A model generated the notes under the pieces. The model was not told the DNA's origin, did no database searches, and saw only the letters and a program-made list of their open reading frames with translations. A program made the position numbers and the translations under genes. Shown here piece by piece: positions 31,489-46,410 of a DNA stretch of 64,000 nt (positions are counted from its first letter, which is position 1; the number at the start of each line of letters is the position of its first letter). The DNA is from Aquimixticola soesokkakensis (GTDB lineage: Bacteria; Pseudomonadota; Alphaproteobacteria; Rhodobacterales; Rhodobacteraceae): contig NZ_FWFS01000008.1 of assembly GCF_900172375.1 (NCBI RefSeq), forward strand, positions 62,001 to 126,000, written 5' to 3'.

Positions 31489-31646
31489 GCCTGCGGGTCT
31501 CCTTGGACCGAATGGGGATGTGCCTCATCTGGGGACGGGGCGGTGACATTTCAAAGCGATACGGCCTGAATTCCGTGACGCAAAGGGGTTTGGCACCAGT
31601 GGGCGCAACGCGCTGACTGGTGGCGATCCCCCCAAAAGGGTAGGGA

Positions 31647-32585: not shown

Positions 32586-33479
32586 ATGGTCATTGATAAC
32601 TGGGACGAAATCCGCACCGCGTTTCAAGTCGCCAAGCTTGGCACGGTGTCGGGGGCGGCAGGCGAACTTGGGGTGCACCACGCCACGGTGATCCGCCACA
32701 TCGACTCGCTGGAGGCGCGCCTCGGCGTAAAGCTGTTCCAACGCCACGCGCGCGGCTACACGCCGACCGAAGCCGGACATGACCTGCTGAAAGTCGCGCA
32801 AACCACCGATGACCAGTTCAATCACCTCGTGAGTCGGATCAAAGGTCGCGGCGAAGGCGTCACCGGCGAGCTTGTTGTGACCTCATTGCCGGGGATGGCC
32901 GCTTTGCTGGCCCCTGTGCTGGCTGAATTCCAGGCCGAACACGATGGGCTGATAGTGCGGTATCTGACCGGCGAGCGGGTCTTTCGCCTCGAATACGGCG
33001 AGGCCCATGTCGCCATCCGCGCGGGCAAGCCGCCGGTCGAACCCGACAACGTGGTGCAGCCGTTCTACGAACAGGACATCGCGCTCTACGTCCACCAGAG
33101 CTACGCCGACCGCTACGGGCTGCCCGCCGAGGACAGGCTGCTGGACGAGTTGCGCTTCGTGGGACACGACGATCCGGCCAACCGCGCGCCGTTCCAGGTC
33201 TGGATGAATGCCAATATCGCCGCGCACAACATCGTCTTTCGTACATCCGACAACGATGCGACAATGATGGCCGTGCTGACGGGGGCAGGGGCAGGCTTTT
33301 TGCCGGTCTGGTTTGCCAAAGAGCGCAGCGACCTGATCGAAGTGATGCCGGCGCGCGCGGAATGGACCAGCCCGAGCTGGCTTGTGACCCATGTCGACCT
33401 GCACCGCACGCCCAAGGTACAAAGCTTTCTGACCTACCTCAAAGACCGCTCCAAAGGCTGGGCCTGCGTCGCGCGTTAG
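32586..33479 (+). CDS. LysR-family transcriptional regulator
   Basis: A protein of 297 residues: an N-terminal winged helix-turn-helix (FQVAKLGTVSGAAGELGVHHATVIRHIDSLEARLGVKLFQRHARG) and a C-terminal periplasmic-binding-like effector domain from about residue 95. It is not flanked by a divergent gene it could obviously regulate, unlike most LysR genes. Effector unknown. It is convergent with the ArsR gene, 14 nt between stops. Confidence 0.9.
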   Translation: MVIDNWDEIRTAFQVAKLGTVSGAAGELGVHHATVIRHIDSLEARLGVKLFQRHARGYTPTEAGHDLLKVAQTTDDQFNHLVSRIKGRGEGVTGELVVTSLPGMAALLAPVLAEFQAEHDGLIVRYLTGERVFRLEYGEAHVAIRAGKPPVEPDNVVQPFYEQDIALYVHQSYADRYGLPAEDRLLDELRFVGHDDPANRAPFQVWMNANIAAHNIVFRTSDNDATMMAVLTGAGAGFLPVWFAKERSDLIEVMPARAEWTSPSWLVTHVDLHRTPKVQSFLTYLKDRSKGWACVAR

Positions 33480-33482
33480 GGC

Positions 33483-33503
33483 TTCTTTCGGATCTAAATA
33501 CCC
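33483..33503 (-). repeat. 21-nt convergent-junction motif, copy 1
   Basis: On the minus strand it reads GGGTATTT, AGA, TCCGAAAGAA. It spans the gap between the LysR and ArsR stops and overlaps the last codons of the ArsR gene. Three other copies lie at 36855, 41197 and 45984, all between convergent genes. Confidence 0.75.
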
Positions 33504-33877
33504 CTGTCGTCCGGCTCCCCCTGGGGCGCCACGCCTGGCTTTGGCAGTTCCGCTGCCAAAAAGCGCTCGAACGCATCGAAATCCAGCGCTTCGAATTGAC
33601 CAAATCCCTGCATCCAGATGGACGCCGCGCGCAGCGCGTCCGGTTCCAGTTTGCACCACTTCACCCGCCCGCGCTTTTCCTGCGCAATCAGCCCGGCACC
33701 CGTGAGTACCGTCAGGTGCTTGGAAATCGCGGCAAGGGACATTTCAAAAGGCTCGGCCACATCGGTGACCGCCATATCGTCTTCCAGCAGCATGACAAGG
33801 ATCGCGCGCCGCGTCGGATCGGCCAGCGCCGAGAAGGTCGCATCGAGGCGGGAAGCGGGGTCAGGGGCTTGGCTCAT
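33494..33877 (-). CDS. ArsR/SmtB-family transcriptional regulator
   Basis: A 127-residue winged-helix protein: TFSALADPTRRAILVMLLEDD, the recognition helix region MSLAAISKHLTVLTGAGLIAQEKRGRVKWCKLEPDAL, and a C-terminal helical part resembling regulators next to SRPBCC/AHSA1 proteins. The usual ArsR metal-binding Cys pair is absent, so metal sensing is unlikely. No such partner gene is adjacent; the 3' neighbour is the convergent LysR gene. Confidence 0.88.
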   Translation of the reverse strand: MSQAPDPASRLDATFSALADPTRRAILVMLLEDDMAVTDVAEPFEMSLAAISKHLTVLTGAGLIAQEKRGRVKWCKLEPDALRAASIWMQGFGQFEALDFDAFERFLAAELPKPGVAPQGEPDDRGI

Positions 33878-34048
33878 CCGTCTGGCGTACCGCCGGTTTC
33901 GGGCTTGGTCAACCAGATGGTTGAATATTGCAATGCAGCGAAATCAGCGGGTTGAGGCCGCTCGCGGCACTGGCAGTGAGAAGGGGGTGAGCATTAAGGT
34001 TGTGCAATATCAACGCGTTAGGTTGGATTTTCTTCGGTTAACATCCGC

Positions 34049-34077
34049 TTGACTCACAAGGGGGTGATCCATAGGTT
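34049..34077 (+). promoter_or_regulatory. Predicted promoter of the F0 ATP synthase operon
   Basis: TTGACT (34049-34054), a 17-bp spacer and TAGGTT (34072-34077) lie about 30 bp upstream of the atpI ATG. A second A/T-rich region is at about 33990-34040. Sequence match only. Confidence 0.5.
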
Positions 34078-34106
34078 GCCCGCAATGTCTGAGAGGGGCT
34101 TGTACC

Positions 34107-34478
34107 ATGACCAACCCGCTTGATCCGGAGCGCATCCGCGCCTTGGAAGAGCGGATTGAGAGGGCCAAGGCCGCGCAAGCGCCCAAGCCTCGCGCAGACG
34201 AACATTTCAGTCAGGCCAATATGGCATGGCGGATGGTAATCGAATTGGTGGCCGGTCTGGGGATCGGTCTGTTCATCGGGTTGGGGCTGGATAAGCTTTT
34301 TGGCACAATGCCACTCTTCCTGGTGATTTTTACAGGTCTGGGTTTCGTAGCGGGCATCAAGACGATGATGCGATCCGCCGAGGAGATCCAGAAAGAAAAT
34401 ACGGCCACGGCACACGCGCCAGAGGCTGACAATGATGCGACCAAGGCGGACAAGACCGCCGCAGACGAGAGGGATTGA
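34107..34478 (+). CDS. atpI: ATP synthase protein I (AtpI)
   Basis: A 123-residue protein with two transmembrane helices ([22 protein letters not shown] and [19 protein letters not shown]) flanked by charged ends, the AtpI pattern. AtpI assists assembly of the c-ring and is non-essential. It heads the F0 operon; its stop is 2 nt before the atpB GTG. The N-terminus is predicted coiled coil ([16 protein letters not shown]). Confidence 0.9.
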
Positions 34479-34480
34479 CC

Positions 34481-35236
34481 GTGGCGACTGAAGCAACCGG
34501 TTCGGAAAGCAGCCTGACGTTCCACCCGATGGATCAGTTCATGGTAACGCCGCTCTTTGGCGACGGCGCTGTGCATTGGTACACGATCACCAACGCAACC
34601 CTGTGGATGGCGCTTGCTGTTCTGGCGATCATCGCGTTGCTGGTGTTTGGTACCCGCGGCCGCGCGATTGTGCCCTCCAAGGCGCAGTCTGTCGGCGAGC
34701 TGATGTATGGTTTCGTCTACAAAATGGTCGAAGATATTTCCGGCAAGGAAGGCCTGAAATATTTCCCCTACATCATGACGCTCTTCAGCTTCATCGTTTT
34801 TGCCAACATGCTGGGCCTCGTCCCGATGTCCTTCACCCCCACCACCCACATCGCCGTGACCGGCGTGCTGGCGATGCTGGTCTTTGTGGGCGTCACCGTG
34901 CTTGGGTTCGTCAAGAACGGCGCAGGCTTCCTGCACCTTTTCTGGATCACCTCCGCGCCGCTGCCGCTGCGCCCCGTGCTGGCGGTGATCGAACTGATTT
35001 CCTACTTCGTGCGCCCTGTGTCCCACTCGATCCGGCTTGCCGGTAACGTGATGGCCGGCCACGCCGTGATCAAAGTTTTCGCAGGCTTTGCCGCGATTGC
35101 CCTCGTGTCTCCTGTCTCCGTCCTCGCGATCACCGCGATGTATGGTCTGGAGCTGCTGGTGGCCTTCGTGCAGGCCTACGTTTTCACCATTCTGACCTGC
35201 GTGTACCTCAAGGACGCGCTTCACCCGCACCACTAA
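34481..35236 (+). CDS. atpB: F0F1 ATP synthase subunit a
   Basis: A 251-residue polytopic membrane protein forming the proton half-channels. Hallmarks: [19 protein letters not shown], and the essential Arg in [14 protein letters not shown], then [24 protein letters not shown] chose GTG 34481 because GAGAGGGA is well placed before it; a TTG at 34475 overlaps atpI. Confidence 0.97.
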
Positions 35237-35279
35237 GTCAGAACACTTTCTAGCCAATTCCAACGTAAGGAGAATACTC

Positions 35280-35516
35280 ATGGAAGGCGATATCGCAGAA
35301 CTCGGTAAATACATCGGCGTCGGTCTCACAGCATTCGGCATGGCAGGTTCGGCCATCGCAGTGGGCAACGTTGCTGGTAACTACCTCGCAGGCGCCCTGC
35401 GCAACCCCTCCGCGGCTGCTTCGCAAACCGCGACCCTGTTCATCGGCATGGCTTTCGCAGAAGCTCTGGGGATCTTCTCGTTCCTCGTCGCTCTTCTGCT
35501 GATGTTCGCCGTCTAA
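35280..35516 (+). CDS. atpE: F0F1 ATP synthase subunit c
   Basis: A 78-residue hairpin proteolipid. Two helices with the glycine-rich first helix ([21 protein letters not shown]), polar loop RNPSAAAS, and the proton-carrying Glu at position 61 in helix two ([17 protein letters not shown]). The strong AAGGAG ribosome site matches the need for many copies per complex. An intercistronic hairpin follows. Confidence 0.97.
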
Positions 35517-35537
35517 TCCGACGAACCGTCCTTACGG

Positions 35538-35565
35538 CAGGGTGGGTCGTTTTCGATCCACCCTG
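35538..35565 (+). promoter_or_regulatory. Intercistronic hairpin after atpE
   Basis: CAGGGTGGGTCG (35538-35549) pairs with CGATCCACCCTG (35554-35565), 12 bp with one G-T pair, loop TTTT. It begins 21 nt after the atpE stop. There is no U-tract. It may protect the atpE part of the mRNA from 3' decay and raise subunit c yield. Confidence 0.55.
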
Positions 35566-35633
35566 TGCCGCATGAAGGCCGCGACCCGTTCGGGGCCTTG
35601 ATAGGTTCAAACGATTAGAGCCAGGAGACAAAG

Positions 35634-36203
35634 ATGGCGACGCAAACACATGGGGCAGAGGCTGCACTCGACGCAGCTCACGGCGCCGCAGCCGCACATG
35701 GCACCGAAGGTGCCACGGGCATGCCGCAGCTCGATCTGTCTACTTTCCCGAACCAGATTTTCTGGCTCCTTGTCACGCTTGTCGTGATCTATTTCGTGCT
35801 CTCGAAGCTCGCGCTGCCCCGCATTTCTGCGGTTCTGGCCGATCGTTCGGGCACCATTATGAATGACCTTGCCGCCGCCGAAGAGCTCAAGCTCAAAGCG
35901 CGTGACGCGCAAGCCGCATACAACCAGGCGCTCAATGATGCCCGTGCCGAAGCAGGCCGCATCGTTGCTCAAACCCGCGCCGGTATTCAGGCTGACCTCG
36001 ACGCCGCTATCGCCAAGGCGGACGCGGAAATTGCCGCCAAAACGGCAGAGTCCGAAGCGGCCATCGCCGAGATCCGCGCCGGTGCGTTGGAAAACGTCAC
36101 CGCCGTTGCCAAAGACACAGCCGCCGAGCTGGTCGCAGCTTTCGGTGGAACCGCCGATGCCGCCACCATCGATGCTGCCGTCAGCCAGCGCGTGAAAGGG
36201 TAA
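35634..36203 (+). CDS. F0F1 ATP synthase subunit b'
   Basis: A 189-residue protein: a His/Ala-rich N-terminal extension (about 35 residues), one membrane helix ([25 protein letters not shown]), then a long Ala/Glu/Lys coiled coil forming the peripheral stalk. It is the b' form, paired with b encoded 3 nt downstream; separate b and b' are typical of Rhodobacterales and phototrophs. Confidence 0.93.
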
Positions 36204-36206
36204 GAC

Positions 36207-36761
36207 ATGAAAAAGCTCGCAACCCTCGCCGCGCTCGCGCCGGTTCCGGCCTTTGCCGCATCGGGTCCGTTCTTTAGCCTGACCAACACGAATTTCATCG
36301 TGCTGCTCGGCTTTCTCGTATTCATCGGCATTCTCGTTTACTACAAAGTGCCTGCGATGCTGGGCAACTTGCTTGATGAACGTGCGTCCTCGATCCGTTC
36401 GGAACTCGACGAAGCCCGTGCGCTGCGCGAGGAAGCCCAGACCATTCTGGCCTCCTACGAGCGCAAGCAGCGCGAAGTTCAAGAACAGGCAGACGGGATC
36501 GTCAAACAGGCGAAAGCCGATGCCGAAGCTGCGGCTGTTCAAGCGAAAGCGGATCTGAAGACCTCGATTGCGCGCCGTCTGGCTGCTGCGGAAGAACAGA
36601 TCACCGCTGCCCAGACCGCTGCGGTGCGCGACGTGCGCAATGCTGCGGTGAATGTCGCTGTGGAGGCCGCTAAAGAGGTGCTGTCCAAGCAGCTGAGTGC
36701 GGCAGATGCGAATAAAATGATCGACGCGTCCATCACAGAAGTGAGCGCAAAGCTCCACTGA
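36207..36761 (+). CDS. atpF: F0F1 ATP synthase subunit b
   Basis: A 184-residue protein with an N-terminal hydrophobic stretch ([20 protein letters not shown], signal-like), a membrane helix ([18 protein letters not shown]) and a cytoplasmic coiled coil ending in KLH. Forms the stator with b'. Last gene of the F0 operon; a strong terminator follows at 36791. Confidence 0.95.
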
Positions 36762-36790
36762 TCGACGCTGATTTGCGACAGTGATATGAC

Positions 36791-36820
36791 ACCCCCGTGC
36801 TGGAAGGCACGGGGGTTTTT
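36791..36820 (+). terminator. Terminator of the atp operon
   Basis: ACCCCCGTGC pairs with GCACGGGGGT (10 bp, loop TGGAAG) and is followed by TTTT, 29 nt after the atpF stop. Confidence 0.88.
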
Positions 36821-36854
36821 CTGTTCAACGGTGCGCGTGTTGTCGGCGTTGGTT

Positions 36855-36875
36855 GGGTATTTTTGTCCGAAAGAA
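36855..36875 (+). repeat. 21-nt convergent-junction motif, copy 2
   Basis: Reads GGGTATTT, TTG, TCCGAAAGAA. It lies between the atp operon terminator and the terminator of the convergent OmpA-type lipoprotein gene. Confidence 0.75.
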
Positions 36876-36893
36876 ACCGATGGCGGCGTATGA

Positions 36894-36923
36894 AAAAGGC
36901 CGGACGCTCGGGTCCGGCCTTTT
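36894..36923 (-). terminator. Terminator of the OmpA-type lipoprotein gene
   Basis: AAAAGGCCGGAC and GTCCGGCCTTTT form a perfect 12-bp stem (loop GCTCGG). A4/T4 flanks allow termination in both directions; it is 20 nt past the stop of the leftward gene. Confidence 0.88.
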
Positions 36924-36943
36924 GTGGTTTTCGCACGCGGTGG

Positions 36944-37624
36944 TTACTGGATCGGGGTGATGACGATCTCGACGCGGCGGTTTTGGGCTTTGCCTTCTTC
37001 GGTCAGGTTTGTCGCGACAGGCTGGTCCTCGCCGCGGCCATAGGAGCGGATACGGTTGGGCGTCACGCCGTTGGCGGTCAGGATCGTCGACACGGCAGCC
37101 GCGCGGCGCGCCGAGAGGTCCTGATTGTAGGACGCCGAGCCGGTGTTGTCGGTGTGGCCGATGATGTCGACGGTTGTGTTGCTGTAATCTTGCAGGTTGT
37201 AGGCGAGCGAGCGCAGATCGCCTTGCAGATCGGAGCGCACAACGGCGCTATCGGTTGCAAAGGTGATATCCTGGGGCAGGGTCACGACGAGTTCGGAACC
37301 GGTGTTCACGATCGAGACGTTGTTGTTGCCCATCGACGCGCGCAGGTCGGCGGCCTGTTTGTCGAGTTGCTGGCCGATGGCCCCGCCCACAGCGCCACCG
37401 ATTGCGGCGCCCACGGCTGTTTTCAAAACTTTGTCCTTGGTGTCGCCACCGGAGGTGATGCCGGCCAAACCGCCCAGCAATGCGCCGGCAACGGCGCCTT
37501 TTTGGGTGTTGGTCGCGCCTGAAACACCAGCATTTGCGCCGGTTTCATAGGCGTAGGGCGTGGTACAGGCGGCAAGCGCGAGCGCGGCCCCTGCGGCGAG
37601 CAGTGTTGTTTTACGAGCGATCAT
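36944..37624 (-). CDS. OmpA-family outer-membrane lipoprotein (YiaD-like)
   Basis: A protein of 226 residues. The lipobox LALAAC gives a lipidated Cys near position 20. A glycine-zipper segment follows (GAVAGALLGGLAGI, then GAAIGGAVGGAIGQQL). The C-terminal OmpA domain carries IIGHTDNTGSASYNQDLSARRAAAV and QNRRVEIVITP, the peptidoglycan-binding signature. It links outer membrane and cell wall. Monocistronic by context, with its own terminator. Confidence 0.92.
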   Translation of the reverse strand: MIARKTTLLAAGAALALAACTTPYAYETGANAGVSGATNTQKGAVAGALLGGLAGITSGGDTKDKVLKTAVGAAIGGAVGGAIGQQLDKQAADLRASMGNNNVSIVNTGSELVVTLPQDITFATDSAVVRSDLQGDLRSLAYNLQDYSNTTVDIIGHTDNTGSASYNQDLSARRAAAVSTILTANGVTPNRIRSYGRGEDQPVATNLTEEGKAQNRRVEIVITPIQ

Positions 37625-37728
37625 ACTGTCCTCTTGTGGTCTTCTTGCTCAATAAACTTGCGTAACGCGGATGTGTTCCCTGCGCGAGAAAAGTTTCTGT
37701 GAGACGGCGGAAATGCGCCGGAGTTGGC

Positions 37729-38595
37729 CTAGGTCTTTGGCGCTGATTTTGCGGCTTCCAGCGCCAGAAGCGTGCGTTTGGTTGGCAAGCCCCAGTGGTA
37801 GCCGCCCAGCGCGCCGCCCGCGCGCAGAACGCGGTGGCAGGGGATGAGGTAGGCGATCGGGTTGCGACCGACCGCAGTTCCGACCGCGCGATGGGCGTTG
37901 GGGTGGTCGATGGCGCGTGCGATGTCAGCGTAGGTTGCGACCGCGCCTTCGGGGATGTGGAGCAGGGCTTCCCAGACTTTGATCTGGAACGGGGCGCCAC
38001 GGATGTGCAGCCTGCCTTGCCCCGCAAAGGCGCGCGCCACGAGCGGTGCAACGGCTTCGATGTTCGGGGTGAAATCTGCTTTTGGCCAGCGTTGCATCAG
38101 ATCGGTGAGCGCGGCTTGCGGGGTATCGGCGGCGAAGGCCAGACCGCACAGGCCTTTGTCGCTGGCGATGGCCTGCATCGGGCCGAGGGGGGTTTGGACC
38201 AGCGCATGGCGCAGGGTCGTTCCGCGTGCTGCGCGGGCATATTCGCCCGGGCTTAGCCCTTCCCAAGTGATGAAGAGGTCGTGGAGCCGTCCGCTGCCCG
38301 AGAGGCCGCTTTGCAGGCTTGTGTCCAGCGTGGAGTGGGCGGTGGCGAGCAGATGCTTTGCGTGATCAAGCGCCAGAAATTGCTGGAGGCGTTTGGGAGA
38401 AATGCCTGCCCAATCGGAAAAGACACGTTGAAAATGCGCGGGACTGAGGCCGACCTGCTGGGCCAGTTGCGCCAGGGAAAGCGGCCTATCCGCGTCGCAA
38501 ATCAGTGTGATGGCGCGGCGCACGATGTCGAAATGATAGCCCTGCGGTTGTTCGATTTGGGGGGCGGGCTGGGACCAAGGAGAAGGGATGGGCAT
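37729..38595 (-). CDS. Ada-like AraC regulator / O6-alkylguanine-DNA alkyltransferase
   Basis: A protein of 288 residues from the ATG at 38595. The N-terminal part is an AraC-type double helix-turn-helix (LSLAQLAQQVGLSPAHFQRVFSDWAGISPKRLQQFLALDHAK). The C-terminal half is the alkyltransferase, with the acceptor Cys near 254 in IPCHRVLRAGGALGGYHWG. It repairs O6-methylguanine by a suicide transfer. The N-terminal Cys-zinc domain of E. coli Ada, which senses methyl phosphotriesters, is missing, so induction by that route is not expected. The frame is open further upstream through tandem repeats at 38679-38738; that part (KPRPT repeats) is probably not translated. Confidence 0.9.
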   Translation of the reverse strand: MPIPSPWSQPAPQIEQPQGYHFDIVRRAITLICDADRPLSLAQLAQQVGLSPAHFQRVFSDWAGISPKRLQQFLALDHAKHLLATAHSTLDTSLQSGLSGSGRLHDLFITWEGLSPGEYARAARGTTLRHALVQTPLGPMQAIASDKGLCGLAFAADTPQAALTDLMQRWPKADFTPNIEAVAPLVARAFAGQGRLHIRGAPFQIKVWEALLHIPEGAVATYADIARAIDHPNAHRAVGTAVGRNPIAYLIPCHRVLRAGGALGGYHWGLPTKRTLLALEAAKSAPKT

Positions 38596-38678
38596 TGCGC
38601 TGGCCTGCTGGTTGGGAACGTCCCTTAGGCTAGCGGGGCCTCTGCGCGGTGGCGACCCGAAACATGCGGGTTTCGCGC

Positions 38679-38738
38679 GGGGCTTGGTCGGGCGGGGCTT
38701 GGTCGGGCGGGGCTTGGTCGGGCGGGGCTTGGTCAGGC
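38679..38738. repeat. Four tandem copies of a 15-bp unit
   Basis: GGGGCTTGGTCGGGC is repeated at 38679, 38694, 38709 and 38724; the last copy has one change (GGTCAGGC). The array lies between two leftward genes and runs into the stop codon of the Hint-domain gene (38733). A length-variable array is likely. Confidence 0.9.
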
Positions 38739-39371
38739 GGCCATGCGGCGTGCGGCGACTGCGGAGCGCGGGCGCAGGAGCGGGGTTTCCTCGGAGCGCA
38801 GACACAGGCGTGCAGATTGCATCTGCTCAAGGCCTGGCCCGAGGGCGCGCCCGAGCGCGGCAACCTGAGCGCTGTCGAGCCGGGCCAGTGCACTGTCGAG
38901 GGGCAGGTAGCTTTCGAGCCAGACCCCCTCGGCCAGCAGGACCTCATGGTCGCTCAAGGCAAGCTGGGTATAGGCGAACCCGTCAGGAAGCGGGTCCGTC
39001 GGGGCGCTATGTTCGGCCTCGGAAGCGATGTCGGTCACGCGCGCAAGGGCCTCCGGCGTGGCGAAATACAGTTCGACAAGCGGGGAGCGCAGCAGCAGAT
39101 GGTGTCCCGGGGAAAGAATGAGATCATGTTCGGGAAGGCCTTTGCCCAGCGTGCCTGCGGGAATGCACACAGGCAGATCGTCCGGTCCGACGGGCGTGCG
39201 CCCGACCCAGGCCAGCGGGCGGTATCCGTGGTCGCGCGTCAGCACGCGGTCGCCCGCCCGCAGCCATTCCGCCGGGAGCGGCCCTTCGGTGGTTTCAACC
39301 ATCACGCCCGGTCCGAAGCCCGGCGTTATAGAGGTGCTGCCACAGGGGGGCGCCCAATCCATATCCATCAT
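38733..39371 (-). CDS. Hint-domain (Hedgehog/intein-type) protein
   Basis: About 212 residues from the ATG at 39371; GTG codons upstream (39419) are in frame. The family pattern is PGVMVETTEGPLPAEWLRAGDRVLTRDHGYRPLAWVGR (block A-like), then HDLILSPGHHLLLRS (block B-like, Gly-His-His) and YTQLALSDHEVLLAEGVWLESYLP. Such proteins are common in Rhodobacterales, often as tails of secreted proteins. Here the domain is nearly alone, with no signal peptide and no obvious N-terminal nucleophile Cys. Autoprocessing is therefore uncertain. Confidence 0.8.
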   Translation of the reverse strand: MMDMDWAPPCGSTSITPGFGPGVMVETTEGPLPAEWLRAGDRVLTRDHGYRPLAWVGRTPVGPDDLPVCIPAGTLGKGLPEHDLILSPGHHLLLRSPLVELYFATPEALARVTDIASEAEHSAPTDPLPDGFAYTQLALSDHEVLLAEGVWLESYLPLDSALARLDSAQVAALGRALGPGLEQMQSARLCLRSEETPLLRPRSAVAARRMAA

Positions 39372-39556
39372 CACACCATCTCTAGTCACGCCCTGACTGT
39401 GGCGTGACAGTCTGACCACAGGATTAATCGCACCTGCTTATTTGTGCCGGATTTGTCGAAGGTTTTAGGAAAATATGTCGTGATTGGCGGGGCGCGCCCT
39501 GCAAAGGCTGCCTGCGTTCTGGACGAAAGCGTGAGGAGAGGGCATAGGATAGCGCC

Positions 39557-40201
39557 ATGATACGCCAGCTCGATTACCACAAGATACACGAGATTTTCAC
39601 GCGCTTTGAGGCGGCCGAGGCCGAACCCAAGGGAGAGCTTGATCATGTCAATGCCTACACTTTGGTCGTGGCGGTTGCGCTGTCGGCGCAGGCCACGGAC
39701 GCAGGCGTCAACAAAGCGACCGCTGCGTTGTTTCCCATCGCGGACACGCCGCAAAAGATGCTGGATCTGGGCGAAGAGGCGTTGATCGAGCATATCAAAA
39801 CCATCGGCTTGTTTCGCAACAAGGCCAAGAATGTGATCAAGATGAGCCGCATTCTGGTCGAGGAGTACGGCGGCGTTGTGCCGTCATCGCGCGCGGCGCT
39901 GGAAAGCCTGCCCGGGGTGGGGCGCAAGACCGCCAATGTGGTGTTGAACATGTGGTGGGGGATGCCCGCGCAAGCTGTGGATACCCATATTTTCCGGTTC
40001 GGGAATCGTTCCGGTGTCGCTGTGGGCAAGGATGTGGTCGCGGTAGAGCGTGCCATAGAGGACAATATTCCGGCGGAATTCCAGCGCCATGCACACCACT
40101 GGATGATTTTGCACGGGCGCTATACCTGCGTTGCCCGAAAACCCAAATGCGCGGCCTGTTTGATCCGCGATCTCTGTGACTTCGAGGAGAAAAACCTGTG
40201 A
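39557..40201 (+). CDS. nth: Endonuclease III (Nth)
   Basis: A 214-residue base-excision-repair glycosylase/AP lyase for oxidised pyrimidines. The helix-hairpin-helix LESLPGVGRKTANVVLN contains the catalytic Lys, VDTHIFR the catalytic Asp. The C-terminal [4Fe-4S] ligands are C-x6-C-x2-C-x5-C in CVARKPKCAACLIRDLC. The stop overlaps the next gene's GTG by 4 nt. Confidence 0.96.
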   Translation: MIRQLDYHKIHEIFTRFEAAEAEPKGELDHVNAYTLVVAVALSAQATDAGVNKATAALFPIADTPQKMLDLGEEALIEHIKTIGLFRNKAKNVIKMSRILVEEYGGVVPSSRAALESLPGVGRKTANVVLNMWWGMPAQAVDTHIFRFGNRSGVAVGKDVVAVERAIEDNIPAEFQRHAHHWMILHGRYTCVARKPKCAACLIRDLCDFEEKNL

Positions 40202-41184
40202 GCAAGACCTATCAGATTGTCGGTATCGGCAACGCCATCGTGGATGTGATCACCCAATCCGACGACAGTTTTCTCGACCTCATGGGGATCGAAAAAGGCA
40301 TTATGCAGCTTGTTGAGCGCGAGCGCGGCGAGGTGCTGTACAGCGCGATGGAAGACCGCGTGCAGGCGGCGGGCGGTTCGGTGGCCAATACGGTTGCAGG
40401 GCTTGGATCGCTGGGGCTAAGGGCCGGATTTATCGGGCGCGTGCGCGACGATGCTTTGGGTAAATTCTATGCTCAAAGTTTCGAGGCCGAGGGCTCGCGG
40501 TTTGTGAATGCGCCGGTGTCGGGGGGGGAGTTGCCCACGTCGCGCTCGATGATTTTCGTTTCGCCTGACGGGGAGCGTTCGATGAATACCTACCTCGGGA
40601 TTTCTTCGGAAATCGGTCCTGACGATGTCAGTGATGACGTTGCGGGGCAGGCCGAGATTTTGTTCCTTGAGGGGTATCTGTACGACAAGCCCAAGGGCAA
40701 GGAGGCGTTTGACCGCGCCGCTCAGGTCTGTCGTGCTGCGGGTGGGAAAGCGGGCATCGCCCTGTCCGATCCGTTCTGCGTGAACCGTCACCGCGACGAT
40801 TTTCGAAAACTTGTCAAAGAGTTGGATTTCGTGATCGGGAACCAGCACGAATGGGAAAGCCTGTATGAGACCGACCTGTCAAGCGCGCTGGAACAGGCCG
40901 CGCGCGAGGTTGGTTTGGTGGTCTGCACCCGTTCGGGCGAGGAAGTGATCCTGTTGCGCGGCGACGAGGTGGTGCATGTGCCGGTGACCAAAGTTGTGCC
41001 GGTTGATGCAACGGGCGCGGGCGATCAATTCGCCGCCGGTTTCCTCTATGGCTATGCGACGGGGCAATCCCTGGAGGTAAGCGGGCGCATGGGCTGCGTT
41101 GCGGCGGCGGAAGTTATTGGCCACGTCGGTCCGCGTCCCGAGGCCGATATCAAGGCGCTGTTCCAGGCGGCAGGGCTGATCTGA
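40198..41184 (+). CDS. PfkB-family kinase, adenosine kinase-like
   Basis: A protein of 328 residues starting at GTG in a GTGA overlap with nth. The N-terminal IVGIGNAIVDVI and GGSVANTVAGLGSLG, and the C-terminal DATGAGDQFAAGFLYGYATG (anion hole and catalytic Asp), define a PfkB sugar kinase. The sequence most resembles the adenosine-kinase-like group of alphaproteobacteria. Substrate is inferred, not shown. Confidence 0.9.
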   Translation: MSKTYQIVGIGNAIVDVITQSDDSFLDLMGIEKGIMQLVERERGEVLYSAMEDRVQAAGGSVANTVAGLGSLGLRAGFIGRVRDDALGKFYAQSFEAEGSRFVNAPVSGGELPTSRSMIFVSPDGERSMNTYLGISSEIGPDDVSDDVAGQAEILFLEGYLYDKPKGKEAFDRAAQVCRAAGGKAGIALSDPFCVNRHRDDFRKLVKELDFVIGNQHEWESLYETDLSSALEQAAREVGLVVCTRSGEEVILLRGDEVVHVPVTKVVPVDATGAGDQFAAGFLYGYATGQSLEVSGRMGCVAAAEVIGHVGPRPEADIKALFQAAGLI

Positions 41185-41196
41185 CCCGTCGGATTT

Positions 41197-41217
41197 GGGT
41201 ATTTAAATCCGAAAGAA
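41197..41217 (+). repeat. 21-nt convergent-junction motif, copy 3
   Basis: Reads GGGTATTT, AAA, TCCGAAAGAA, 12 nt after the kinase stop and immediately before the terminator stem, between convergent kinase and polA genes. Confidence 0.75.
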
Positions 41218-41248
41218 GCGGCGCAGGTTAGGTCCTTGCGCCGCTTTT
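41217..41248. terminator. Terminator between the PfkB kinase and polA
   Basis: AGCGGCGCA pairs with TGCGCCGCT (9 bp, 11-nt loop) followed by TTTT. It terminates the nth-kinase unit and, read the other way, lies just after the polA stop at 41263. Confidence 0.8.
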
Positions 41249-41262
41249 CGTTGCAAAGGTGA

Positions 41263-44082
41263 TCAGTGGGCCTGCGCCCAGCTGTCGCCAATGCCACCGT
41301 CTACTTCGATGGGGACATCGAGATGGACGGCGGGGCTGGCGGCGGTTTCCATGACCTCGCGTGCGATCTTGATCAGCGCGTCGCATTGGTCCTCGGCCAC
41401 TTCGAAAATCAGTTCATCGTGGACTTGCAGCAGCATTTTGGCGTCCAGCTGGGCGATCGCGCTGTCCATGCGCACCATGGCGCGGCGGATGATGTCGGCG
41501 GCGGTGCCTTGGATCGGGGCGTTGATGGCGGCCCGTTTGGCAAAGCCGGCCGTGGGCCCTTTGGCATTGATTTCGGGCGTATGGATTTTGCGTCCGAACA
41601 GGGTTTCCACCCGCTCGTGTTCTTTTGCAAAGGCAATCGTGGTGTCCATATAGGCTTTGATGCCGGGAAAACGTTCGAAATAGCGGTCGATGAAGCCTTG
41701 GGCTTCGGCGCGAGGGATGCGCAGGTTGCGCGCAAGGCCAAAGCCGGAGATGCCGTAAATGACGCCAAAGTTGATCGCTTTGGCCTGACGGCGCACCATC
41801 GGGTCCATGTTTTCGAGCGGCACGTTGAACATTTCCGACGCGGTGAGCGCGTGAATGTCCAGACCATCGCGAAAGGCCTGTTTCAGCGAGTCGATGCCCG
41901 CGACATGGGCCAGAATCCGCAATTCGATCTGAGAATAATCGAGCGAGACCAGTTTGCGTCCTTGCGGCGCGATGAAGGCTTCGCGGATGCGGCGGCCTTC
42001 TTCCGAGCGGATCGGGATGTTTTGCAGGTTCGGGTCCGATGAGGAGAGGCGCCCGGTCACAGCCCCCGTTTGCAGATAGGAGGTGTGGACGCGGCCCGTT
42101 TCGGGATTGATGAAGGTTTGCAGCGCATCGGTATAGGTCGATTTCAGCTTGGACAATTGCCGCCAATCCATCACCCGCGCCGGCAGGTCGTGCCCTTCGG
42201 CGGCGAGGTCCTCAAGGATATCCGCGCCGGTCGCATAGGCACCGGTTTTGCCCTTTTTGCCGCCCTGTAGTCCCATTTTGTCAAACAGGATTTCGCCCAG
42301 TTGCTTGGGTGAGCCGACGTTGAAGCTTTCGCCCGCCAGCGTGTGGATTTCCGCCTCAAGCCCTGCCATTTTCTGCGCAAACGCGTTGGACATGCGCGAT
42401 AGCGTGTCTTTGTTCACCAGAACGCCGTGCATTTCCATGCGCGCCAGAACCGGCGAGAGGGGACGTTCGAGCGTTTCGTAGACCGTGGTCACGCGGGTGG
42501 CATGCAGTTTGGGTTTGAAGACCTGCCAGAGGCGCAGCGTGATGTCGGCGTCTTCGGCAGCATATTTGACGGCGGTGGCGATATCGACCTTGTCAAAGGT
42601 GATCTGGCTTTTGCCTGATCCGATCAACTCTTTGATCGCAATGGGATTATGTGACAGGTAGCGTTCGCTGAGCGCGTCCATGCCGTGGCCGTGCAGACCC
42701 GCGTGCAGCGCATAGGACATGAGCATCGTGTCATCATAGGGGGCGACTTGCACCCCGTAGCGCGCCAGAATTTTGGCATCGTATTTCATGTTCTGGCCGA
42801 TTTTCATCACGGCTGCGTCCTGCAAAACGGGACGCAAGGTGTCGAGCACCATCTCGAGCGGCAACTGCCCCTCGACCTTTGCACCCGCGCCGAAGAGATC
42901 GTCGTCCCCCGCAGTATGGGCCAGCGGGATATAGCAGGCCACGCCCGCCTCGACACAGAGCGAAATGCCGACCAGATCGACCTGCATTTCGTCCAGACCT
43001 GTGGTCTCGGTATCCAGCGCCACATGGCCGCGCGCGCGGATCAGATCGACCCAGCGTTCCAGCGCGCCCAGATCGCGGACCCATTCATAGGTGTCGTGAT
43101 CAAAGGGCAGGGCCTGTGGCGCGGCGGGGGCATCGGGCTGCGCGGCGTTGCCCGCCTCGGGCAGGGCAGGTGCCTCGACGCCAAACCGCTCGGCTGCCCG
43201 TTTGACGATGGTGCGAAATTCCATTTCCGACAGGAATTTCAAGAGCGCGTCCAGATCGGGGTCTTTCACCTCAAGGCTGTCGAGTGTGTAGTCGAGGACC
43301 ATGTCGCAATCGAGTTTGACCAGATCGCGCGAGAGGCGGATCTGGTCGACGTTGTTTTGCAAGGTCTCGCGGCGTTTGGGTTGTTTAATCTCGCCCGCGC
43401 GCGCCAGCAAAGCGTCGAGGTCGCCGTATTCGTTGATCAGCAAAGCAGCGGTTTTGATCCCGATCCCCGGTGCGCCGGGCACGTTATCGACAGAATCGCC
43501 CGCAAGGGCCTGCACATCCACCACACGTTCGGGAAAGACGCCGAATTTCTCGAAAACACCATCGCGGTCGATGCGCTTGTTCTTCATGGCATCAAGCATC
43601 TCGACGCCATCGCCCACGAGCTGCATCAAATCCTTGTCCGACGAAATGATCGTTACCCGCCCCCCCGCCTCGCGCGCACGGCAGGCCAGTGTCGCGATGA
43701 TGTCGTCGGCTTCAAAGCCCTCTTGTTCAAGGCAGGCGATGTTGAAGGCGCGGGTCGCCGCGCGCGTGAGCGGCATCTGGGGACGCAAGTCCTCGGGCAT
43801 GGCATCGCGGTTGGCCTTGTAGAGGTCGTACATGTCGTTGCGAAACGTGTGGCTGCCCTTGTCGAACACGACGGCAGCGTGCGTGGGGGCGTCAGGCCCT
43901 GCGCTGTCCTCGATGTATTTGAACAGCATGTTGCAAAACCCCGAAACGGCGCCCACGGGCAGACCGTCGGATTTGCGCGTGAGGGGGGGCAGGGCGTGAA
44001 AGGCCCGAAAAATAAACGCGGAGCCGTCGATCAGATGCAGATGGCAGCCTTTGCCAAAGCTGTCGGTTTTGCCCTCGGACAT
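41263..44082 (-). CDS. polA: DNA polymerase I
   Basis: A protein of 939 residues. The 5'-3' exonuclease domain (about 1-300: HLIDGSAFIFRAFHAL, IISSDKDLMQLV, GDSVDNVPGAPGIG) is followed by a 3'-5' proofreading domain with an intact DTETTGLDEM motif. The polymerase domain has LDYSQIELRILAH (motif A), RRQAKAINFGVIYG (motif B) and QVHDELIFE (motif C, from about 886). It fills gaps in repair and removes RNA primers. The ATG at 44082 is preferred to an upstream GTG (44124) because GGGAG is well placed before it. Confidence 0.97.
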   Translation of the reverse strand: MSEGKTDSFGKGCHLHLIDGSAFIFRAFHALPPLTRKSDGLPVGAVSGFCNMLFKYIEDSAGPDAPTHAAVVFDKGSHTFRNDMYDLYKANRDAMPEDLRPQMPLTRAATRAFNIACLEQEGFEADDIIATLACRAREAGGRVTIISSDKDLMQLVGDGVEMLDAMKNKRIDRDGVFEKFGVFPERVVDVQALAGDSVDNVPGAPGIGIKTAALLINEYGDLDALLARAGEIKQPKRRETLQNNVDQIRLSRDLVKLDCDMVLDYTLDSLEVKDPDLDALLKFLSEMEFRTIVKRAAERFGVEAPALPEAGNAAQPDAPAAPQALPFDHDTYEWVRDLGALERWVDLIRARGHVALDTETTGLDEMQVDLVGISLCVEAGVACYIPLAHTAGDDDLFGAGAKVEGQLPLEMVLDTLRPVLQDAAVMKIGQNMKYDAKILARYGVQVAPYDDTMLMSYALHAGLHGHGMDALSERYLSHNPIAIKELIGSGKSQITFDKVDIATAVKYAAEDADITLRLWQVFKPKLHATRVTTVYETLERPLSPVLARMEMHGVLVNKDTLSRMSNAFAQKMAGLEAEIHTLAGESFNVGSPKQLGEILFDKMGLQGGKKGKTGAYATGADILEDLAAEGHDLPARVMDWRQLSKLKSTYTDALQTFINPETGRVHTSYLQTGAVTGRLSSSDPNLQNIPIRSEEGRRIREAFIAPQGRKLVSLDYSQIELRILAHVAGIDSLKQAFRDGLDIHALTASEMFNVPLENMDPMVRRQAKAINFGVIYGISGFGLARNLRIPRAEAQGFIDRYFERFPGIKAYMDTTIAFAKEHERVETLFGRKIHTPEINAKGPTAGFAKRAAINAPIQGTAADIIRRAMVRMDSAIAQLDAKMLLQVHDELIFEVAEDQCDALIKIAREVMETAASPAVHLDVPIEVDGGIGDSWAQAH

Positions 44083-44148
44083 GGCCTCGTCTCCCTCGGA
44101 AATGCGTTTGGCATCTTGTGCCACGTTCCGACGGTGTCTTCCAGTAGG

Positions 44149-44574
44149 TCAGGCGCTTGGCGGGGCAATCCGCGCGCCCTCGATCATCGTGTTCGAAATA
44201 AAGGAGAGCACTTCGCCCCAAGCGGCAGAGGTGTCACGGGTCCAGGTATCGCCCGCATGTGCCGCCAGCGTGTCCATCAGCACCTCGCAAACGATGTGAT
44301 ACTGTCCGTCCGAGACGCCATAGGCGCGATGGTCCGCCCCCATTTGCCGCAGCGGCTCGATAAGGCTTTCGGGCGCTTCCAGCGCTGAAAGTGCAAGCTG
44401 CATCGTCGCCTCAAGCTTGAGGGCTTGGGTGGAAATGTCTTTGGGAAACAACTGGCGCACACTGGGTTCGACCACGAACAGGCGCGTGTAGAATTCCTCA
44501 AGAAGCTCGGGGCAGGTCGAAAACACGGCCTGAAAACTGGTCCGCACAAGCGCGGTTTTGTCAGCGGTCAACAT
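44149..44574 (-). CDS. Bacterial haemoglobin-like globin
   Basis: About 141 residues from the ATG at 44574 (GGGAG upstream; ATG 44604 would add ten). It is a three-over-three globin: VRTSFQAVFSTCPELLEEFYTRLFVVEPSVRQLFP (helices A-C), LEATMQLALSAL (E), and MGADHRAYGVSDGQYHIVCEVLMDTL with a candidate proximal His in the F helix, then AWGEVLSFISNTMI (H). Length fits single-domain bacterial haemoglobins; no reductase domain is attached. It may bind O2 or NO. Confidence 0.75.
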   Translation of the reverse strand: MLTADKTALVRTSFQAVFSTCPELLEEFYTRLFVVEPSVRQLFPKDISTQALKLEATMQLALSALEAPESLIEPLRQMGADHRAYGVSDGQYHIVCEVLMDTLAAHAGDTWTRDTSAAWGEVLSFISNTMIEGARIAPPSA

Positions 44575-44642
44575 GGGCAGCTCCCGATTGGCGTCCTGAG
44601 ACATGCCTATCGCCAAACCCTTAAGAACCTCTGAAACCGTGC

Positions 44643-44837
44643 TTAGCTTGCGGGTTTTGCCGAATCCAGCGTCGAGGAGGCGTGGATGTATTTCTTGTCG
44701 CAATAGCCACATTCGACAAAGCCGCTGGCATGGGGAATCACCAGCCACACCCGCGGGTGCCCCAACGCGCCCTCACCGCCATCGCAGGCGACTTTCCAGC
44801 TGTTAACCACTTCGGTTTCGGGCGCATCCATCGTCAT
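44643..44837 (-). CDS. CHCC-type zinc-finger protein (NDUFS6-like)
   Basis: A 64-residue protein with [20 protein letters not shown] and [13 protein letters not shown], giving a Cys-His-Cys-Cys set as in the zf-CHCC family related to the mitochondrial complex I subunit NDUFS6. In alphaproteobacteria it is thought to accompany complex I. Standalone gene upstream of the globin. Confidence 0.88.
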
Positions 44838-45009
44838 GGAATGTTCTCTCTCGTCATTGGGCGGTGCAGGCGCAATTGCAGCAAGCGACCGGATCGTTTG
44901 GCGTCGCGCATTTGCTTTTGGTCAAATCGCGGCGTAAGTCAGGGCCATATGATAACGATCTGCAAGGGCGCGACAAGGGGGCGCGTTTTGCAGGTCGCAG
45001 GGGAAGCGG

Positions 45010-45945
45010 ATGACACAACACGCAATCGAGATCAAAGGCCTGCGCAAAACCTATGCAGGACGTGCAGGGCAACCGCCCAAAGAGGCGTTGAAGGGGATTG
45101 ATTTGACGATTCCGGCGGGGTCGATCTTTGGCCTTCTCGGCCCCAACGGCGCCGGAAAATCCACCCTGATCAACATTCTGGCCGGGCTGGTGATCAAATC
45201 GGCAGGCAATGTGTCGATCTGGGGCTTTGATCAGGACGTAAACCCGCGTCAAAGCCGCGCGGCCATCGGCGTCATGCCCCAGGAATTGAACCTGGATCCG
45301 TTTTTCACCCCCCGCGCTGCGCTGGAAGTGCAGGCTGGCCTCTACGGCGTGCCCAAACGCGACCGGAAAACCTCCGAAATTCTCGACTTGATCGGCCTCA
45401 CCGACAAAGGCGAAGCCTATGCGCGGACGCTGTCGGGGGGCATGCGACGCCGCCTTCTGCTGGGCAAGGCGCTGGTTCACCAACCCCAAATCCTCGTGCT
45501 CGATGAACCCACCGCTGGCGTGGATATCGAATTGCGCCAAATGCTGTGGCATAACGTGCGCCGCCTCAACAAAGAGCGCGGCATGACGATCATCCTAACC
45601 ACGCACTACCTCGAAGAAGCGCAGGAAATGTGCGATGAAATCGCCATTATCAACCATGGCGAAGTGGTGGTGCGTGATCGCACGCAGGCGCTGATCGGGC
45701 GCATGGACGCCAAAACGCTTGTGGTAACCCCCGAAGGCGCCACGCCCGACACATTCGACCTGCCTGCAGGGGTGACGCTGGACCGCCGCACCGATGGCGC
45801 ACTGGCATTTTCCTATGCGCGCGGTCAGACGAACGCAGGTGTCGTGCTTGATGCAGTGCGTGCTGCCGGTGTGACGATTGGCGATGTCGCCAGCGTGGAG
45901 CCCGATCTCGAAGACGTCTTTGTCGCCCTGACATCGGGTAAATAA
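45010..45945 (+). CDS. ABC transporter ATP-binding protein (YadG-like)
   Basis: A protein of 311 residues with one nucleotide-binding domain: Walker A GPNGAGKST (44-52), signature LSGGMRRRL, Walker B ILVLDEPTAGVDIELR, and H-loop TTHYLEEAQEM. The GVDIELR stretch is typical of the YadG group, partners of ABC-2 exporters. No permease gene is adjacent, so the partner must be elsewhere. GGGGAA precedes the ATG. Confidence 0.9.
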   Translation: MTQHAIEIKGLRKTYAGRAGQPPKEALKGIDLTIPAGSIFGLLGPNGAGKSTLINILAGLVIKSAGNVSIWGFDQDVNPRQSRAAIGVMPQELNLDPFFTPRAALEVQAGLYGVPKRDRKTSEILDLIGLTDKGEAYARTLSGGMRRRLLLGKALVHQPQILVLDEPTAGVDIELRQMLWHNVRRLNKERGMTIILTTHYLEEAQEMCDEIAIINHGEVVVRDRTQALIGRMDAKTLVVTPEGATPDTFDLPAGVTLDRRTDGALAFSYARGQTNAGVVLDAVRAAGVTIGDVASVEPDLEDVFVALTSGK

Positions 45946-45983
45946 AAGACATCGGCGCGCAGGCCCCCGCACACCGATGCTGT

Positions 45984-46004
45984 TTCTTTCGGATAAAAAT
46001 ACCC
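45984..46004 (-). repeat. 21-nt convergent-junction motif, copy 4
   Basis: On the minus strand it reads GGGTATTT, TTA, TCCGAAAGAA. It sits between the convergent ABC ATPase and HIT genes (87-bp gap). Confidence 0.75.
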
Positions 46005-46032
46005 GACCACGCCAGACACAGGCTGTGCGGGA

Positions 46033-46410
46033 TCAGGCGCTCACCAACGGCCCCACAGGCGCCCCCCCCAGGAGATGCACGTGAAAATGTGGCACTTCCT
46101 GGTGACTGTGCGCCCCCGAATTGGTGATCAGGCGATAGCCTTTGCCATCATGGGCCTCCGACAAGCCCTGCTGCTTGGCCACCTCGGCCACCGCTTTGAA
46201 AAAGCCGACGATCTCCGCGTCGGATGCGGCTGTCATAAAATGGTCGTAGCAGCGGTAAGGGCCTTTGGGGATCACGAGAATATGCGTGGGGCGTTGGGGC
46301 GTGATATCGGGAAACGCATAGGCGAACCGATCGTCGAAAACCGGCTTGGACGGAATCTCGCCGCGTAGGATTTTGGCAAAAATATTCTGCTCGTCGTAGG
46401 TGTAGCTCAC
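46033..46410 (-). CDS. HIT-family nucleotide hydrolase (HinT-like)
   Basis: A 125-residue protein: NIFAKILRGEIPSKPVFDD at the start and the histidine triad HFHVHLLGG near the end. HinT proteins hydrolyse purine nucleoside phosphoramidates. The GTG start has AAGGA upstream and lies 11 nt after the GT14 gene stop, so the two are probably cotranscribed. Confidence 0.93.
   Translation of the reverse strand: MSYTYDEQNIFAKILRGEIPSKPVFDDRFAYAFPDITPQRPTHILVIPKGPYRCYDHFMTAASDAEIVGFFKAVAEVAKQQGLSEAHDGKGYRLITNSGAHSHQEVPHFHVHLLGGAPVGPLVSA

Follow-up and report, generated by a model that had tools for sequence, protein, structure and literature searches.

Genus-level dialects of a gene-end element in the Rhodobacteraceae, seen first as an exact 21-bp motif in Aquimixticola soesokkakensis

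Why should a 21-bp sequence recur, almost letter for letter, in the gaps where two genes converge? The question is raised by a stretch of 64,000 nucleotides of the Aquimixticola soesokkakensis genome (contig NZ_FWFS01000008.1, positions 62,001 to 126,000; hereafter the window), in which a sequence-only reading had picked out four copies of a motif built of two fixed blocks around three free bases (N3), and had proposed either a conserved functional element or a miniature mobile repeat that favours certain sites. By following the motif through the whole source assembly (G000; 3,490,747 bases in 32 contigs, completeness 98.87) and through related genomes, we find it to be the genus-level form, or dialect, of an element that is Rhodobacteraceae-wide and sited beside the 3' ends of genes. 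Both halves of the earlier proposal contribute to its explanation and are thus partly supported, since a DNA site that is also copied around fits best.

An exact, bipartite motif in the source genome

Searched for as GGGTATTTNNNTCCGAAAGAA (18 specified positions plus N3), the motif was found in the window at all four places and on the strands originally noted, without a mismatch. The four copies agree at all 18 specified positions and differ only in N3 (AGA, TTG, AAA and TTA). Shuffled versions of the window yielded 0.06 matches at up to three mismatches, and none of 100 shuffles reached four. In the whole assembly 54 copies are exact, a further two have one mismatch and another has two, which makes 57 matches where the reversed pattern has none and confirms a copy number far beyond chance. 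A deeper scan, up to six mismatches in 729 kb of the genome (464 kb of window and control stretches, and 265 kb around copies), returned 54, 2, 1 and 0 copies at zero to three mismatches, with a single reversed-pattern match at three, and then 3, 22 and 176 at four, five and six mismatches, against 5, 23 and 150 for the reversed pattern. From four mismatches upward the counts are thus those of the background, and the element is all-or-nothing. The shuffles, the reversed-pattern counts and the mismatch scan together rule out a chance origin of the copies.

Internally the motif consists of 8 fixed, 3 nearly free and 10 fixed base pairs. N3 takes 11 different forms over the 54 exact copies (TTA in 31, GGG in 7, AAA in 4), its first base never being C and its last never T. 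Weaker conservation extends into the flanks: the two preceding bases are T in 42 and 40 of the 54 copies, the base that follows is A or G in all 54, and the two after that are C in 41 and 43. Summed over the 21 bp, conservation amounts to about 38 bits, whereas by simple arithmetic about 17 bits would be required to mark 54 sites, a surplus that indicates copying as well as recognition. That the motif is exact save for its three middle letters suggests that some putative protein reads the element, since retention outside N3 is letter-perfect. A recent burst from a single copy was considered and rejected: 11 N3 triplets beside 18 fixed positions speak against it, with the proviso that the invariance is partly built in by the search pattern and that just three more copies at one to three mismatches carry the argument, and the three bases that follow GGGTATTT vary in two other genera (G027 and G076) too.

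At six places (loci L018, L022, L027, L032, L033 and L045) two copies face outward, 29-32 bp apart, with spacers that differ in sequence. Within each of these pairs the two N3 also differ, and exactly one member carries G at the middle base. Permutation gave p = 0.06 for all six pairs differing; it gave 0.0015 for how many letters differ and 0.001 for the G pattern, two statistics that were picked after the data were seen.

With genes called by a home-made dicodon gene finder, each of the four window copies lies between genes facing each other, as had been stated. The further claim that the motif occurs only at such junctions is true of the window, but not of the genome: of the 53 exact copies for which both neighbours were called, convergent gaps hold 31 and divergent gaps 1, and co-directional gaps hold 15 in sense and 6 in antisense (four of the latter belonging to close or 200-bp pairs), the remaining copy being unclassified beside a contig end. 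As a control we used gaps of at least 21 bp in 464 kb, comprising the window and five copy-free contigs. Here 43 of 249 gaps (17%) are convergent, and intergenic bases are 13% convergent and 37% divergent; by gap count, the convergent excess has a p of about 2e-11. Convergent gaps are thus strongly preferred and divergent ones avoided, although the preference is not exclusive. Apart from one copy within the first 35 bp of a called open reading frame (ORF) whose start is doubtful, and one over a stop codon, all 54 lie between called genes.

Dialects and shared junctions across the family

In the wider family the element takes the form of GGGTATTT or a close variant, about three free bases, and then a purine-rich half that varies by genus. 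A looser pattern, GGGTATTT-N1-9-AAGAA, matched in 33 of 61 family genomes, with 0-3 matches per genome for the reversed control. Nine genomes have at least nine matches (G000 55, G002 26, G007 13, G012 57, G020 81, G027 51, G063 9, G075 16 and G076 19) and 24 have one to four, some places being counted twice because of the variable gap. In a class-wide scan of 142 genomes, the 140 outside the family gave 0-6 looser matches, like their controls (0-8). The second half reads NNN-ACGAGAAAGAA in G027 (47 exact copies with A or C first, and 14 with one mismatch), NNN-CCAAGAAGAA in G020, NNN-AAGCAAAGAA in G076 and, in 6 of 9 matches, NNN-ACCAGAAAGAA in G085, while G012 has a degenerate C-R-W-W-GAAGAA form. 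The strict A. soesokkakensis pattern, at up to two mismatches, is found in six of 60 relatives, with one to three matches each, every one at two mismatches. Among 84,980 genomes, one per species, the strict dialect gave 17 isolated matches, one of them in a Rhodobacteraceae metagenome-assembled genome, near relatives perhaps being excluded from that set.

Gene context was tallied in two other genera. Of the 47 G027 copies, 16 are convergent, 18 and 9 lie in co-directional gaps in sense and in antisense, 3 are divergent and 1 is unclassified; 15 copies in G076 comprise 6, 3, 4 and 2 in the first four classes. The upstream flanks vary between genera as well: of the 47 G027 copies, 19 directly adjoin CCTCCGGC[G/A]G or CCTTCGGCGA and 11 adjoin an end that resembles GGATTT. 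At seven G027 loci (L100, L101, L104, L108, L111, L124 and L207) a second repeat, (CG)TTAAGGTTAAT or its reverse complement, follows the motif, often with a further element facing back, the composite spanning about 100-200 bp in all.

One junction, upstream of ksgA, could be read across the family. This gene was found in 56 of the 61 genomes, one per genus, and its upstream DNA was read in all 56, pdxA not adjoining it in at least two. Under a rule framed post hoc (G-R-N0/1-TATTT, followed within 11 bases by six purines in a row), a member is present in 13 of 56 genera, nine in sense and four in antisense, compared with 0 of 30 coding stretches of 600 nt and, over 200 shuffles, with an average of 0.1 genomes and never more than 1. 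By eye, a variant outside the rule is seen in five further genomes (G003, G006, G031, G076 and G078). The 3' end of polA, where a recognisable member was seen by eye at 5 of 39 junctions, was dropped as a test junction because the genes downstream are not conserved; between G000 and G027 copies it matches on one flank only.

Plasmids carry the wider element as well. A consensus-like query of 35 bases matched 13 plasmid records from the Rhodobacterales genera Paracoccus, Leisingera, Dinoroseobacter, Ruegeria and Phaeobacter, and no match falls beneath an annotated gene. Of ten records examined for context, four are convergent, two of them being the same locus in sister species, and two are antisense in co-directional genes; the gene tables are incomplete, with three records nearly unannotated and one listing a single neighbour. 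A phage origin was discarded, as no viral contig carries the strict motif and no phage record matched the consensus-like query of the wider element.

DNA site, RNA signal or mobile repeat

A position at gene ends would suit a signal that acts in RNA, as part of an extended terminator or as an mRNA processing site. Taking a terminator-like hairpin to be one of -12 kcal/mol or better followed by at least four T in six, we found one within about 60 nt of 28 of the 54 copies, with either side and either strand taken into account, and in 3 of 200 random single windows of the same size. On the motif strand the hairpin comes before the motif in 13 copies, 12 of these hairpins ending directly before it, at most 9 nt away, and after it in 10. 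In the window, hairpins adjoin three of the four copies and not two, as had been thought: the 36855 copy is flanked by two, the 41197 copy lies between the stop codon of the PfkB gene and the hairpin that adjoins it, the 45984 copy lies between the stop codon of the HIT-domain gene and its terminator, and the 33483 copy has none. The abutment of 19 of 47 G027 copies on a GC hairpin of the CCTCCGGCGG type, the C-run ahead of 8 of 11 G012 and 10 of 15 G076 copies, and the lean toward sense orientation in co-directional gaps also speak for RNA. Yet 26 of the 54 copies have no hairpin nearby, 10 have it behind the motif instead of ahead of it, members occur in antisense within co-directional genes, and copies are fitted into tight co-directional pairs (at L020, 10 bp past a stop and 13 bp ahead of a start; at L043, 28 and 17 bp). 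The short folds of the four window copies, moreover, are no better than those of shuffles (z -0.3 to -1.5). Intrinsic terminators thus share with the motif the placement at gene ends and, in about half the copies, the hairpin, but they differ in that a GC hairpin with a T-run at a fixed place is not found across the 54 copies, and in that a terminator needs no fixed 18 bp. Since copies occupy tight co-directional pairs, and since the wider element is found on either strand at one conserved co-directional junction, the earlier suggestion of a termination or mRNA 3'-end signal is disfavoured, and we regard it as distinctly improbable. An RNA hairpin of the form GGGUA-UUUU-UAUCC was also tried and set aside, its fifth pair being available in only 35 of 54 copies and the G027 dialect being incapable of forming it.

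What has to be reconciled, then, is exactness without decayed copies, a diversity limited to N3, and a turnover of positions between genera combined with recurrence, on either strand, at some junctions. Selection acting site by site accounts for the exactness, but not for the surplus of conservation. A passive repeat without host function, MITE-like (miniature inverted-repeat transposable element) or REP-like (repetitive extragenic palindromic), mobilised in trans by a putative enzyme that inserts beside gene ends, accounts for the turnover. It would also explain why different genera have few sites in common, why both strands are used at one junction, and why there are inverted pairs, genus-specific sequences and more conservation than site recognition needs. 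It does not explain why decayed copies are nearly absent (3 of 57 with mismatches, and none at three mismatches in 729 kb) though N3 has diversified. The Y1_Tnp family (PF01797) of REP-associated tyrosine transposases (RAYTs) has no match in G000 and, among 18 family genomes tested, is present only in G007, and the phage searches above gave no match. We consider the passive repeat a serious but doubtful alternative.

A site that is both recognised and copied, in the manner of bacterial interspersed mosaic elements (BIMEs) or uptake sequences, accounts for exactness, N3 diversity and turnover alike. Our tentative preference, to which we would give a little less than an even chance, is accordingly for a REP/BIME-like interspersed element that is read as DNA by a putative protein at gene ends and has spread by copying. 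The skew toward convergent gaps, the outward-facing pairs, the genus-specific second halves and the recurrence at pdxA-ksgA also speak for it. The two fixed blocks measure 8 and 10 bp and their centres lie about 12 bp apart, as would suit a protein touching the DNA on two successive turns; they would be read in double-stranded form by a putative protein family that may differ between genera in which second block it recognises. Copies would spread by copying, and imperfect ones might be lost either because selection removes them or because recognition demands an exact copy. At gene ends the element could then serve as REP/BIME-like punctuation between transcription units, acting on DNA topology, on nucleoid structure or as a barrier to transcription.

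Several observations weigh against this preference. The reader protein is itself putative. Exactness is unequal between genera, given that 14 of 61 G027 copies have one mismatch and that the G012 form is degenerate. The sense lean in co-directional gaps (15 against 6 in G000, p = 0.08; 18 against 9 in G027, p = 0.12) is significant in neither genome, but is not predicted by a strand-blind DNA site. A GGGU/RUCC helix of 4 bp could form in 53 of the 54 copies and be extended in 35, the other pairs being invariant and so uninformative, although the G027 dialect is unable to form it. The 54 copies of G000 and the 47 of G027 have only two junctions in common by both flanking genes, pdxA-ksgA on the same strand and the convergent gnd-hrpB with the motif on opposite strands, so that single positions are not deeply conserved. 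Finally, contig C13, of 244 kb, is free of copies despite its housekeeping genes (pheT, uvrB, ppk and a tRNA gene). It is one of five such contigs (C10, C13, C23, C25 and C27, about 830 kb). A distribution confined to the chromosome was considered: C10 has accessory-looking genes where scanned, but C13 has the housekeeping genes just named, and no repC-type gene was found in G000. The copy-free contigs reflect either an uneven distribution or an undetected replicon structure.

Comparison with known systems places the motif between several of them. REP elements and BIMEs of E. coli and its relatives are short intergenic repeats at gene ends, with many copies, inverted pairs and lineage-specific sequence, all of which the motif shares, being intergenic near gene ends and forming six inverted pairs. 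It differs in that its genome has no RAYT and in that its bipartite 8-3-10 core has no clear stem-loop: the four window copies fold no better than shuffles, the 4-bp helix is possible in 53 of 54 copies but not in the G027 dialect, and a GC hairpin abuts 19 of 47 G027 copies. With the RAYT absent and the stem-loop doubtful we do not class it as REP, although REP elements without a resident RAYT do exist. The DNA uptake sequences and uptake signal sequences (DUS/USS) of Neisseriaceae and Pasteurellaceae are non-palindromic and exact, have genus dialects, use both strands and form inverted pairs near gene ends. One could speculate that imported DNA with exact copies is preferred, by competence or by recipients of gene transfer agents, and that recombination mends decayed copies. 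The copies seen here do share the exactness, the lack of decayed copies, the dialects, the use of both strands, the inverted pairs and the placement at gene ends, but known uptake sequences are far denser and lie inside genes as well, whereas 54 exact copies in 3.49 Mb make about one per 65 kb, and the sole copy inside a called ORF is the one at the doubtful start; we judge the uptake reading highly improbable. A strict protein site between transcription units, like the eukaryotic-type roadblock sites of Reb1, would also account for the placement, but the protein is here only putative, and copies lie in tight co-directional pairs too. A bolder version of our preferred reading would be that the Rhodobacteraceae possess a DNA-recognition system which is dedicated and diverges fast, in which a putative protein reads a near-fixed first half and a genus-dialect second half, keeps and spreads exact copies and so marks gene ends, be it as an insulator or as an uptake or gene-transfer-agent signal. 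This we hold to be unlikely. Among the titles and abstract openings listed by our literature searches there was no description of the element and no alphaproteobacterial counterpart of such a system.

If a protein does read the site, a layer of gene-end punctuation would have been overlooked in the Rhodobacteraceae, which are a large family of marine and model bacteria, and the genus dialects would amount to a natural experiment in how a DNA-binding protein changes along with its dozens of sites. If the element is only a mobile repeat, it would be REP-like without a resident RAYT. On either reading, many genera have members at the same gene junctions, and annotation should recognise these members.

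The window copies and their surroundings

The copies in the window, the genes on either side and the neighbouring hairpins are given in Table 1. The stop codon of the ArsR-type gene falls within the 33483 copy (33494-33503, minus strand), at the first bases of N3.

Table 1 Motif copies, flanking genes and terminator-like hairpins in the window
Feature	Position	Strand	Remark
LysR-type regulator gene	32586-33479	+	other flank of 33483 copy
Motif copy, N3 = AGA	33483-33503	-	convergent gap; overlaps stop codon of ArsR-type gene
ArsR-type regulator gene	33494-33877	-	convergent partner of LysR-type gene at 33483 copy
ATP synthase B gene	36207-36761	+	flank of 36855 copy
Terminator-like hairpin and T-run of ATP synthase B gene	36791-36820	+	upstream of 36855 copy
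Motif copy, N3 = TTG	36855-36875	+	between ATP synthase B and OmpA-family genes
Two-way terminator-like hairpin	36893-36924		downstream of 36855 copy
OmpA-family gene	36944-37624	-	flank of 36855 copy
PfkB kinase gene	40198-41184	+	flank of 41197 copy
Motif copy, N3 = AAA	41197-41217	+	between PfkB kinase and polA genes
Terminator-like hairpin	41216-41248	+	directly after 41197 copy
polA (DNA polymerase I)	41263-44124	-	flank of 41197 copy
ABC ATPase gene	45010-45945	+	flank of 45984 copy
Terminator-like hairpin	45943-45981		after 45984 copy
Motif copy, N3 = TTA	45984-46004	-	between ABC ATPase and HIT-domain genes
HIT-domain gene	46033-46410	-	flank of 45984 copy

Rfam gave no gathering-level match at the four window sites, its three matches within 33300-46300 all being far under their gathering scores. 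Elsewhere in the assembly, the copy-free contig C10 carries a fused CofGH gene (FO synthase, F420 pathway; L214:5111-7441) that scores above the NCBIfam cut-off. In the window itself, Rfam RF01793 (ffh sRNA) matches at 31586-31637 on the minus strand with 56.4 bits against a threshold of 35, a position just past where the adjoining genes have their 3' or 5' end regions.

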